This document shows positions 7,577 through 36,339 of a DNA stretch of 40,738 bases, one piece after another. Source of the DNA: Bacteroidales bacterium (GTDB lineage: Bacteria; Bacteroidota; Bacteroidia; Bacteroidales; JAGOPY01). The position numbers and the translations under genes were made by a program. Under the pieces are notes generated by a model. It saw only the letters and a program-made list of their open reading frames with translations, was not told the DNA's origin and ran no database searches. Position 1 is the first letter of the stretch. The number at the start of each line of letters is the position of its first letter. The stretch lies in the NCBI GenBank assembly GCA_030638325.1, contig DAOWEV010000193.1, forward strand, positions 1 to 40,738, given 5' to 3'.

Positions 7577-10500
7577 TTAAAAATGCGCTCTCAACTGTAA
7601 ACTCCCTATGTGAACGGCATTTAAATCTTCCGCCTTCCTGCCGTCATACACCAGGTTAAGCTGCAGGAATTTAGCGAGGTTCTGTTGATAAGACACGCTC
7701 CAGGTTGCATTCTTGCCGGTCTTATATCCACCCAGCATTTCAAAAGTTAAAGGTGTATTCTGCGCTCCATCATAAGAGGTTGAGATATAATTAACTTTAA
7801 GGACGACATTCCCTTTGTTTACGATCCTGTATGTGACCTCTGTTCCGATATCCTGGATCATCGCTTTCTCTTTTGCCTCACCTAAAGTATTGATCTTGTA
7901 TGATAATTGATAAGTCAGGTCAATCCTGAAAGAGGAGTTGGGCTGGTATATGAGGGAAGGCCGCAGTTCGTCAAATTTCACCGAATAATTATTACCGGAG
8001 TAAAAATCAGATCCGCGGCTGCTGGTACCCCTGTTATATTTCATATTTATTGTGAAGGCCTCGTAAAAATTCCACCGTATTGAGATCCCGTTCCGGGTAA
8101 TCCTTCGGATTTCAAATCCACTCACAAGCAGGGCCTTGTTCCGGTTGGTTTGGTAATTCAAATCAAATCCGAACTTTTGATTGACCCTGTTATAATATAA
8201 GGTATTCCTGAAAGATGAATTCAGTGACAGGAGTGCCGTATCATTGATCATATCACCTGTTGCAAACGGATTGAAAGCAATCCATGGATCATCCGATGAG
8301 GACTTTCTTTCAGTTCTGTAGATCAACTGATCCGAGAACCTTGCCACAACACCTTTCCAGCCTTTCTTTTTCTTCCAGACAACAGCGGGTTGAATGTTTA
8401 TTGATTCGGTGAATTTGCTGAAATAGGATCTGACATACTCATTACTTTGAGTAAAAACCCTGATATAGTTGGCCTGGTCCTTAAAAGGAGCCACCTCAAA
8501 TTCATTCAATTGTTCAATGCTATCGTTATTATAATCCACCCACATAAAGATCCCTTCCCCGTTGGGCACTTTCAGGTAATAAAACTCCTGCCTGGTCTCA
8601 GATCCACTCCCTAATTCATAAAAGGTGTTTGATGTTATAGTGCCTTTCAGGAATTTTACAAAATATTCCAGCCTGCCGACAATAGTATTTTCTGGTTGCT
8701 GTGATACCCGGGTTGTATCTTTAACGGCCAGGGTTCTGTAAGTAGCCCCAACGGTAATCCTGTTGGAGGCATTTTTCAGCAAACTGACTCTAAACCCAAG
8801 ATCCTGTGCTGCTGTTGCCTGCCTTAAGCTGTTTTGGTATGGTAGCTTATCCACCCTGTTTTTATAACTGATTGAATATTGATTACGAATAGTGTCAGGA
8901 CTTTCCATGTATACTTCCCACTGTATAAATGAGAAACTGTTCAGTAACAATGAATCCGTCTGTTTATTCCGGTATTGGTTGTTTTCCTGTTCCAGCCTGA
9001 TCCCGGTTTTGAACCATTTGAATTCTTTTGATAATCCTGCCATCTGGCGTAAGAAACCGGTTGTCAGATCATCTTGAGCAGAGTTCATCAAATTGCCGTC
9101 AAACATCAGCTCAAAACCTTTTATCTTCACCAGCGCTCCGATGAAATTCCGGTAGGCCTGGTACTCATCTCCGATAAACAGCGTATTGACCTGCCAGCCT
9201 ATATATCCGTATTTATCATTTAAAAGGCTCAGGTTCACTCCTGCCAGGTGCTGATCCAGTAAAAGCAGTGAGTCATCCAGGTTCCAGTCACGTGTAAACT
9301 CAACCGGACGAAAGCGCTCCACAGGCCTGAAACGGTCATCAACGAACTCATAGGAGGCTTTGCTTGAAATCTTCCACAATGTATCCTTTTTTTTATTGAT
9401 ATATGACAGATTATTAAATTTCAACCTGATACCAAAGCCTAAATTGTCATTGTCATCTTTTGGAGAAAATAAGTTCAAATCATTGTTACTCATGGCGATC
9501 TCAGCGTTTAAGGAAGTTCTTTTATTGAACTTATAGCCGGCCCCCAGCACCAGCATTTGTGTCTTGTCAGGGGTCACCAGCAGCTTTACCGGTTCGTAAC
9601 TTCCCTGCGGAACCCCATCCACAGGAGCAACCCATTTGTATACCCTGCCGTTGACGCCAAGATTATCCAGCAAGTAGTTCCCCTTTTTCTGCCCCATATT
9701 GGAAAAGCTAACGCGGTACACTGCGCTGTCGGGATTTGCTGATAAAACAAATACCGAATCATATAAAACCTGATTAACCAGGGTATCCACCATTTTGTAG
9801 CGGATTTGATCCGTGGCATAGCCGAGGCTGTCAAAACCCGGAACAAAGGCGCTTCCCACATCATCGCCAATGGTTGATAAATAGGCTTTTTCATCCGGGC
9901 TCAATGGCTGCAGAAGAGATTGGTTTTTCAGGTCCTGCTCGGAATAAAAATTGAATCTCAGGCTGAGCTTATTCATTTCCAATTCATTACCTACAAAAAA
10001 CAAGGAGCGGGCATAACGTTCATCTGAATATTCAAATTCAACGATTATTCTTTTATCCTTATTGATCAGGATATTAGGGGTAAAAGTTACTTCGGCCGTG
10101 TTATAATCTATGATATAATCACATTTCTCACCCCGGGTCATCAGCATACCATCAATATAAACATTCTCGGATCCCGCGAGAACGATGATATAGGTCTCTC
10201 CGCCAGCTCCTGTCAACTTATAGGGCCCCTGGTTGCCTTCCTGCCCCTGGATTTTATTCCTCGCAAACTTTCCCTTCGAAAGCGCTGCTGCTGCTTTGAC
10301 CCGGTATGTTCCGGGGCCGGAAGTCCTTTTTTTTCCGACCTTTACTTCTGTTGAAAACAAACCGCCCTGCAGCTTTTTATAAAAATTCATAAAATACCCG
10401 GGTGGCTTTGTCAGTACAAAATCACCGGCAACCAGGATTGACTTGCGGTGTTTCAGTTGAATATAAACCCTGTCAAACTCCTGGATTACCTGTGTATTGC

Positions 10501-33682: not shown

Positions 33683-35113
33683 ATGAAGCTGACACGTGTA
33701 AATAAAGTACCCGGACCGGATAGTTTTATTCTTCTAATCTCTGATATCAGCTCGCTTGAAGGAACGTCATACCTTTCTCCGGAAGAGCTTGCTTATGCAA
33801 AAAAGACCCTGAATGACAAAAAAAATACAATGTGCCTGGACCGCCTCGGAAAGATGGCTTGTATCCATGTCTTTAAGAGAGATGATAATAATGCAAAAAG
33901 GCTGGAATCATGCAGAAAAGCGGGTGATAAAATAGCCGCTGACCTGAATGGCCATAAGATCAAAAATGTTGTGGTCATCGATGTGGAGAATGTCATGGAT
34001 GAAGCGCTTTCAATGGCCGAAGGGATCATGCTGGGGAATTACCAGTTTGTCAAATACCTGAAGGAGAAGAAGGAAAATTCCCTGAAATCGGTAAATATTC
34101 TGTCAAAGGCGGTTAAGAAGAGCCATGTTGATATGTTGAATATTGTGGTGGATGCAACCTGCCTCGCAAGAACCCTGGTGAATGAGCCTGTTTCCTTCCT
34201 GAATGCGGTCAGGCTGTCAAATGAGATCAGGAAGATGGGAACGGAAAGCGGAGCTAAAGTGGAAGTGCTGAACAAGAAAAAGATCGAGTCTTTGAAGATG
34301 GGCGGACTGCTGGCGGTCAACAAAGGCAGTGTGGATCCCCCGACCTTTACCATCATGGAGTGGAAACCCGAAAAGCCGGCAAACAAAAAACCTGTGGTAC
34401 TGGTCGGGAAAGGGGTTGTATTCGATACCGGGGGATTGAATCTCAAACCCGGCAATTATATGGACGATATGAAATGCGACATGGCAGGTGCAGCGACGAT
34501 GTCAGCAACTATTTATGCAGTGGCCAGGGCGGGATTGCCGGTGCATGTGATCGGACTGATCCCGGCTACCGATAACCGCCTCAATGGAAACGCCTATGTT
34601 TCTGGAGATGTGATCAGGATGTACGACGGCACCACAGTGGAGGTCAAAAATACTGATGCTGAAGGAAGAATGATACTTGCAGACGCCCTCAGCTATGCCA
34701 AAAAATACAAGCCGGAACTGGTGATCGATGCAGCAACGCTCACAGGGGCTGCCAGACGTGCTATCGGCAAATATGGCATCGTCGCCATGGAAAACAAGGC
34801 CGGAGAACAAATGGAAAGCTTAAAAGAAAGCGGCGAAAGAGTGTATGAAAGAATTGCTGTGTTTCCATTCTGGGAAGAATATGCCGAGCTTATCAAATCC
34901 AACATTGCAGACATCAAGAATATTGGCGGCCTCGATGCAGGTATGATCACCGCCGGTAAGTTCCTGGAACATTTTACAGATTATCCTTTCATTCACTTAG
35001 ACATAGCGGGCCCTGCTCATATTGAAAAGAAAGACAGTTACAGAACGACAGGCGGCACCGGGACAGGTGTTAGATTATTGTTTGATTTTCTGAAAAACTA
35101 CTGTACTGATTAG
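33683..35113 (+). CDS. pepA: Leucyl aminopeptidase family protein (M17)
   Basis: VGKGVVFDTGGLNLKPGNYMDDMKCDMAGAATM, NTDAEGRMILADALSYA, ATLTGAARRAIG. Confidence 0.95.
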   Translation: MKLTRVNKVPGPDSFILLISDISSLEGTSYLSPEELAYAKKTLNDKKNTMCLDRLGKMACIHVFKRDDNNAKRLESCRKAGDKIAADLNGHKIKNVVVIDVENVMDEALSMAEGIMLGNYQFVKYLKEKKENSLKSVNILSKAVKKSHVDMLNIVVDATCLARTLVNEPVSFLNAVRLSNEIRKMGTESGAKVEVLNKKKIESLKMGGLLAVNKGSVDPPTFTIMEWKPEKPANKKPVVLVGKGVVFDTGGLNLKPGNYMDDMKCDMAGAATMSATIYAVARAGLPVHVIGLIPATDNRLNGNAYVSGDVIRMYDGTTVEVKNTDAEGRMILADALSYAKKYKPELVIDAATLTGAARRAIGKYGIVAMENKAGEQMESLKESGERVYERIAVFPFWEEYAELIKSNIADIKNIGGLDAGMITAGKFLEHFTDYPFIHLDIAGPAHIEKKDSYRTTGGTGTGVRLLFDFLKNYCTD

Positions 35114-35142
35114 AGGCTGGCCTTAAAGGCTAAAAGCGGCAA

Positions 35143-35170
35143 TAAAAAAAGGGGTGCACCTCTGCACCCC
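35143..35170 (-). terminator. Intrinsic terminator oriented on the minus strand
   Basis: Perfect 8-bp stem GGGGTGCA/TGCACCCC with 4-nt loop (35151-35170), then T7 on the minus strand (A7 at 35144-35150). Confidence 0.75.
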
Positions 35171-35196
35171 AGCCAAGCTAAAACTAATAGGTAGGA

Positions 35197-35217
35197 ATAA
35201 TAAAACTGTTTTATTAT
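35197..35217. repeat. Perfect 21-bp palindrome
   Basis: ATAATAAAAC t GTTTTATTAT. Confidence 0.85.
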
Positions 35218-35375
35218 CAGTTAATTGCAAAATTATAGAGAAGTAATACGGTTTTTTATAAGTTTTTTTAAAAAAATATTAACAAATTGTTAATAACCTT
35301 TTGAAAGACAGTGTGTTTTCATAATTTAAAGCATATAAATCAAAATATAATACCATCCACTAAAACCTGAAACTA

Positions 35376-35990
35376 TTGTACTTCATAAAAACACCCGGCA
35401 TATTAAAAACGATCTTTCCATCTAATCTGATATGGGATATTCATACAGAAGATAAGATCATTTATCTGACCATTGATGACGGGCCTACACCGGATCTCAC
35501 ACTTGCCATTCTTAATATTTTAAAAGAATTTAATGCTCAGGTCACCTTTTTTTGTGTCGGAGATAATGTTGAAAAGCATCCTTTTTTGTATTCAGAAATT
35601 TTAAACGCCGGCCATGCTGCCGGGAACCATACCTTCAACCATCTGAATGGCTGGAAAACGGCAACAGCTGATTATTTAAATAATGTGGAGCAATGCAAAC
35701 AGCTTGTGGCAGGCGATCTTTTCAGGCCTCCATACGGCCGCATCTCATTCAGCCAGAACAAGGCCCTGAAAAAAGATTTCAGGATCGTCCTGTGGTCGGT
35801 GCTGAGTGGTGACTTTGACCAAAAAGTATCGAAAGAAAAGTGCCTGGAAAATGTGATTAAACACACCAAACAAGGTTCTATTGTTGTGTTCCATGATCAT
35901 ATTAAAGCAGCCCGGAATTTGCTTTATGCCTTACCAGGATTTCTAAAGGAATTCAAAAAGAAAGGATTTCGTTTTGAGGCGTTGGGCTAA
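35376..35990 (+). CDS. Polysaccharide deacetylase family protein (NodB domain), TTG start
   Basis: IIYLTIDDGPTPDLTLAILNILKEFNAQVTFFCVGDNVEKHP, HAAGNHTFNHLNG, FRPPYGRIS; in-frame stop at 35361 and no suitable ATG. Confidence 0.92.
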   Translation: MYFIKTPGILKTIFPSNLIWDIHTEDKIIYLTIDDGPTPDLTLAILNILKEFNAQVTFFCVGDNVEKHPFLYSEILNAGHAAGNHTFNHLNGWKTATADYLNNVEQCKQLVAGDLFRPPYGRISFSQNKALKKDFRIVLWSVLSGDFDQKVSKEKCLENVIKHTKQGSIVVFHDHIKAARNLLYALPGFLKEFKKKGFRFEALG

Positions 35991-36130: not shown

Positions 36131-36208
36131 TTTACAGTTTACAATTTACGATGTACAATTTACAAAGTTGGGGGGGCGGGAATTACATCGTAAATAGTAA
36201 ACTGTAAA
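36131..36208. repeat. Inverted repeat with heptad-periodic arms and G-rich loop
   Basis: TTTACAGTTTACAATTTACGATGTA (36131-36155) pairs with TACATCGTAAATAGTAAACTGTAAA (36184-36208), one mismatch in 25. Confidence 0.85.
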
Positions 36209-36339
36209 CTGTAAATTGTAAAACCGCTTCACGGTTCACAATAGATTGATGAATACCTCACTTGATAATGAACTACAAAATTACGACATGACTGTTTTTA
36301 GCGGGTCAGGAGTTCTGAACTTTCAACTCGTAATTCAAG

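Follow-up and report, generated by a model that had tools for sequence, protein, structure and literature searches.

A predicted minus-strand small RNA gene between pepA and a nodB-like gene in a Bacteroidales genome

The closest described counterparts of the locus analyzed here are bacterial small RNAs (sRNAs) of three kinds: (i) the BTnc class of Bacteroides thetaiotaomicron, high-confidence intergenic sRNAs that include GibS, (ii) the paralogous FopS family (RF04319), and (iii) AniS (RF02274). In B. thetaiotaomicron, 49 intergenic sRNAs with an anatomy of transcription start site (TSS) and terminator have been described, of which 27 are strain-specific; a canonical promoter was found for 76% of the intergenic candidates, and Northern blots confirmed 9 of the 11 sRNAs tested (8/9 with both TSS and terminator) (PMC7366714). 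In Bacteroides, sRNAs are bound by the RRM-1 protein RbpB (PMC11697453).

The locus lies in contig C35 of a Bacteroidales assembly (2.75 Mb, 258 contigs, 79% completeness); the whole stretch of 40,738 nucleotides analyzed is referred to below as the window. To our knowledge, few small RNAs have been annotated in uncultured Bacteroidales. Between pepA and a nodB-like gene, we infer, with a probability of about 0.6, that the minus strand of the intergenic region is transcribed from an independent sRNA gene that is single-copy and lineage-specific (Table 1). This reading is the best supported one because the terminator is stronger than expected by chance, both neighbors are on the opposite strand, the promoter box agrees with the promoter statistics of the genome, and the same search rule recovers two tRNA genes. 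By strand, the predicted RNA is not part of the transcript of either flanking gene.

Table 1. Predicted features of the pepA-nodB intergenic region and its flanking genes
Feature	Position in window	Strand	Details
pepA	33683-35113	+	family M17 leucyl aminopeptidase
Intrinsic terminator	35144-35170	-	stem 35170-35151, T7 35150-35144; dG -15.2 kcal/mol
Predicted small RNA	35144-35222	-	~79 nt, 37% GC; from -7 box position and terminator
Linker	35171-35196	-	26 nt, UCCUACCUAUUAGUUUUAGCUUGGCU, mostly unpaired; open in centroid structure
Perfect 21-bp palindrome	35197-35217		ATAATAAAAC-T-GTTTTATTAT; 10-bp arms, 1-nt spacer
-7 box	35228-35235	-	TAATTTTG, then CA; Bacteroidetes primary sigma factor type; genome promoter statistics and PWM
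nodB-like gene	35376-35990	+	polysaccharide deacetylase

The candidate resembles the BTnc sRNAs in its putative TAnnTTTG-type promoter, intrinsic terminator, intergenic location, and low GC content (37% vs 35%). A Rho-independent terminator at the 3' end, which the predicted RNA has, is a criterion of Bacteroidetes intergenic sRNAs (PMC7366714). The BTnc sRNAs are often strain-specific, and the candidate, with its predicted transcript, is likewise without relatives found. It has no Rfam-level match to any of them (BTnc049, 16.7 bits vs a cut-off of 81.9), and the promoter motif of GibS is PM2 rather than the TAnnTTTG type. The FopS sRNAs are of similar size and also carry a single-stranded region before a Rho-independent terminator (PMC11697453); however, the candidate scores 15.9 bits against a gathering cut-off of 56, is single copy (vs 14 FopS copies in B. 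thetaiotaomicron), and has an AU-rich 5' hairpin preceding the open region. No Rfam 15 family reached its gathering score anywhere in the window, and relaxed thresholds gave nothing above cut-off. The best sub-threshold match, AniS, presents a 5' hairpin, a linker, and a GC-rich terminator with a T-run in the same order, but reaches 22 bits vs the cut-off of 50 (E 0.06-0.17); what the two share is the overall layout of hairpin, linker, and terminator.

An intrinsic terminator facing the minus strand between two plus-strand genes had been noticed in the sequence-only reading, and both stem and T-run lie where that reading had put them. The stem is formed by GGGGTGCA-GAGG-TGCACCCC and is followed by TTTTTTT; it is the sole terminator with dG <= -10 in the 40.7-kb window. 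For the chance test, the intergenic region 35114-35375 was subjected to 20,000 dinucleotide-preserving shuffles. A terminator of -12 or better was obtained in 12 shuffles, one of -15 or better in a single shuffle, and the combination of a terminator (-12 or better) with an upstream -7 box in none, whereas a minus-strand TAnnTTTG appeared in 7,522 shuffles (38%) and TAnnTTTGC in 13%. The strength of the terminator is far beyond chance. Given these frequencies, it is the terminator that carries evidential weight, and the -7 box alone, not significant in AT-rich DNA, is weak evidence.

The terminator is one-directional, away from pepA and nodB, and its stem is located 37 nt past the pepA stop codon. 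Such a position would also suit the 3' end of the plus-strand pepA mRNA, with the hairpin acting in mRNA stability or as a terminator; the perfect palindrome upstream of nodB, which is operator-like, would then bind a nodB repressor and the minus-strand pattern would be coincidental. We regard this explanation as improbable: read along the plus strand, the stem runs into AGCCAAGCTA rather than a T-run, which lies on the other strand, and nothing in the single-copy region points to a regulon.

Genome statistics were derived from an 832-kb sample of the same genome, taken as stretches with the window included and with genes called simply as longest ORFs. The sample contains 35 terminators with dG <= -13, and the noise of terminator calling is low because just 3 of them fall inside called ORFs. 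Five strong terminators lie between two opposite-strand genes. Three of these are bidirectional terminators seen from their reverse side (L078, L130, and L129), one ends a tRNA-Met gene with TACCTTTGC upstream (L099), and the remaining one is the candidate locus. A weaker orphan terminator, with TAATTTTGCACT upstream, was found in another tRNA gene (L138, 6592-6665). Unidirectional orphan terminators with an upstream TAnnTTTG box are rare in the 832 kb, the clearest three being those of the two tRNA genes and the candidate locus; orphan terminators with a -7 box otherwise comprise the L106 leader described below and a few weaker cases. The rule that combines a promoter box with a one-directional orphan terminator picks non-coding RNA genes of this genome with little noise, the two tRNA genes being internal positive controls. 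The same rule could serve other genomes of the phylum, and the candidate RNA itself is of modest importance.

The main rival to the sRNA gene is an insulating antisense terminator that stops minus-strand transcription before pepA, produces no functional RNA, and yields a short transcript as a by-product. The transcription that it stops would come from promoters in the AT-rich leader of nodB, either spurious or divergent, or would run antisense to nodB. The short distance between the stem and the pepA stop codon is consistent with this role, as are the very AT-rich composition of region 35250-35375, the weaker minus-strand -7-like boxes at 35278 and 35349 (one mismatch each), and the general abundance of antisense TSSs in Bacteroidetes, which make up 24% of the TSSs of B. 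thetaiotaomicron (PMC7366714). However, the rarity of strong one-directional orphan terminators in the 832 kb argues that such insulation is not the rule in this genome, and the presence of a -7 box and a hairpin at sRNA-like spacing is left unexplained. Insulation is therefore judged unlikely, yet it deserves to be kept in mind.

Several other terminators of the sample were recorded on their own account. Three further strong terminators, each placed after an opposite-strand gene and ahead of a gene on their own strand, are possible leader terminators. One of the three, in L106 at the start of a 2-oxoglutarate dehydrogenase E1 gene, is very strong (8197-8225, -21.4 kcal/mol) and is preceded by a 757-nt non-coding stretch and by a TATATTTGC box 241 nt upstream; it is a possible leader attenuator. 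The strongest terminator of the sample (L138, 10516-10547, -23.1 kcal/mol) is separated by 299 nt from an opposite-strand gene and followed after 86 nt by a gene for 140 aa, and neither an Rfam match nor a -7 box was found for it.

The TAnnTTTG-type element reported upstream of the terminator is real; its position had to be shifted by two bases, from 35233-35226 to 35235-35228, where the minus strand reads TAATTTTGC. The box begins 65 nt upstream of the terminator stem. In the 832-kb sample, TAnnTTTG is 3.7-fold enriched upstream of genes (144 vs 39 occurrences in shuffles) and TAnnTTTGC 7-fold (56 vs 7.8), and TAnnTTTGC is validated as the -7 box by the promoter statistics of the genome itself. 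The candidate box TAATTTTGCA matches the extended consensus of this genome, and its PWM score of 11.3 (training median, 13.5) exceeds that of 30% of training sites; on intergenic strands with no gene in need of a promoter, the density of sites this good is just 0.16 per kb. The -33 box had been called unclear, and we likewise see no clear one upstream of the candidate. In the 832-kb sample, a strong -33 motif is not visible even before ordinary genes, where T is slightly preferred near -33, so its lack of clarity is little objection. In Flavobacterium, the -7 box has been mapped to -12 to -5 (PMC9723704), and with the box at 35235-35228 the likely start is A35222 (about 35223-35222). The transcript outlined previously was about 80 nt long, and from the corrected box its predicted length is ~79 nt.

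The perfect 21-bp palindrome described between the box and the terminator is indeed present; a comparable one arose in 155 of the 20,000 shuffles (0.8%). In the RNA it would form the 5' hairpin; alternatively, it is possibly an operator. The fold of 35222-35143 is dominated by two hairpins and has a z-score of -2.16, 6 of 200 shuffles being as stable; for the longer stretch 35130-35240 the z-score is -1.32, short of significance. The linker, predicted to be open, is a candidate seed region. No ORF of at least 20 aa starts on the minus strand within 35222-35144, and there is no start-to-stop ORF inside the predicted transcript. A small-protein reading was rejected: the single minus-strand ORF starts with TTG at 35230, inside the promoter and upstream of the predicted start.

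On the plus strand, no TAnnTTTG box was found between pepA and nodB (35113-35375), so that expression of nodB, for which TTG at 35376 is the likely start codon, may rely on pepA read-through or on a promoter of another type. If read-through occurs, the candidate, complementary by position to the pepA-nodB leader, could act in cis as an antisense RNA that, by perfect pairing, causes the intergenic mRNA to be processed or terminated. Such a role seems rather improbable, since some 150 nt separate the RNA from the start of nodB downstream, which leaves the nodB translation start uncovered, and nodB may have promoters of other types.

As to conservation, the independent sRNA gene proposed here has no homologue in the genomes searched. 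A DNA search of 98 order-level genomes gave no convincing homologue, only short AT-rich or hairpin matches, the best of which (E 2.2e-5) spans 41 bases covering the terminator; a covariance model built from the single sequence gave a best E-value of 0.013 per genome in 99 genomes, equal to chance expectation; and a genome-collection scan found no homologue. The adjacency of pepA and nodB is not conserved: in the fetched flanks, nodB was beside pepA in 0 of 29 PepA loci and pepA beside nodB in 0 of 29 NodB loci. The kdtA-pepA neighborhood is kept in a few relatives, and no comparable minus-facing terminator was observed right after the pepA stop codon in the pepA loci of relatives. The nearest named matches of PepA in the genome-collection scan are from Bacteroidales MAGs (66% identity). 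The two other genomes of the same family that were compared are both distant (about 44-49% for NodB, 66-67% for PepA), and for this reason the missing homologues say little about function. The region is single copy in its own genome, and a repeat-element reading was rejected on this ground.

A hairpin, an open linker, and a terminator form the usual plan of a base-pairing sRNA. In the proposed mechanism, the TAATTTTGCA box would be used by the primary sigma factor, with initiation near 35222; the T-run would then halt RNA polymerase, and the resulting RNA would carry a 5' AU-rich hairpin, the open linker, and a GC-rich terminator hairpin. By analogy with described sRNAs, its most likely mode of action would be base-pairing of the linker with mRNAs in trans. 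A scan of 473 translation starts for linker targets gave no signal above chance, 16 of 40 shuffled linkers equaling it. An RRM-type protein is the probable partner, again by analogy, because an RRM_1 protein (87.8 bits) was found in the genome and Hfq was not, a combination also described for Bacteroides; Hfq gave no match in an assembly that is 79% complete, so its absence is uncertain. A more specific model is a long shot: in a Bacteroidales lineage that lacks Hfq, a lineage-specific trans-acting RNA would be bound by an RRM-1 protein and would be autoregulated, or switched by a repressor that acts on the 21-bp palindrome where its transcription starts. The candidate is probably a previously unreported regulatory RNA of a well-known, ordinary kind.

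Two further observations concern the neighborhood of nodB. Between nodB and a GNAT gene, an inverted repeat of TTTACAGTTTACAATTTAC motifs occupies positions 36131-36230 of the window; the 12-mer TTTACAATTTAC has 19 copies in the 832-kb sample, so the repeat is dispersed and may be a small mobile or REP-like element. The same convergent gap contains a second -7 box on the minus strand, TAATTTTGTAG (about 36275-36282, PWM score 12.1), which is directed antisense into nodB.
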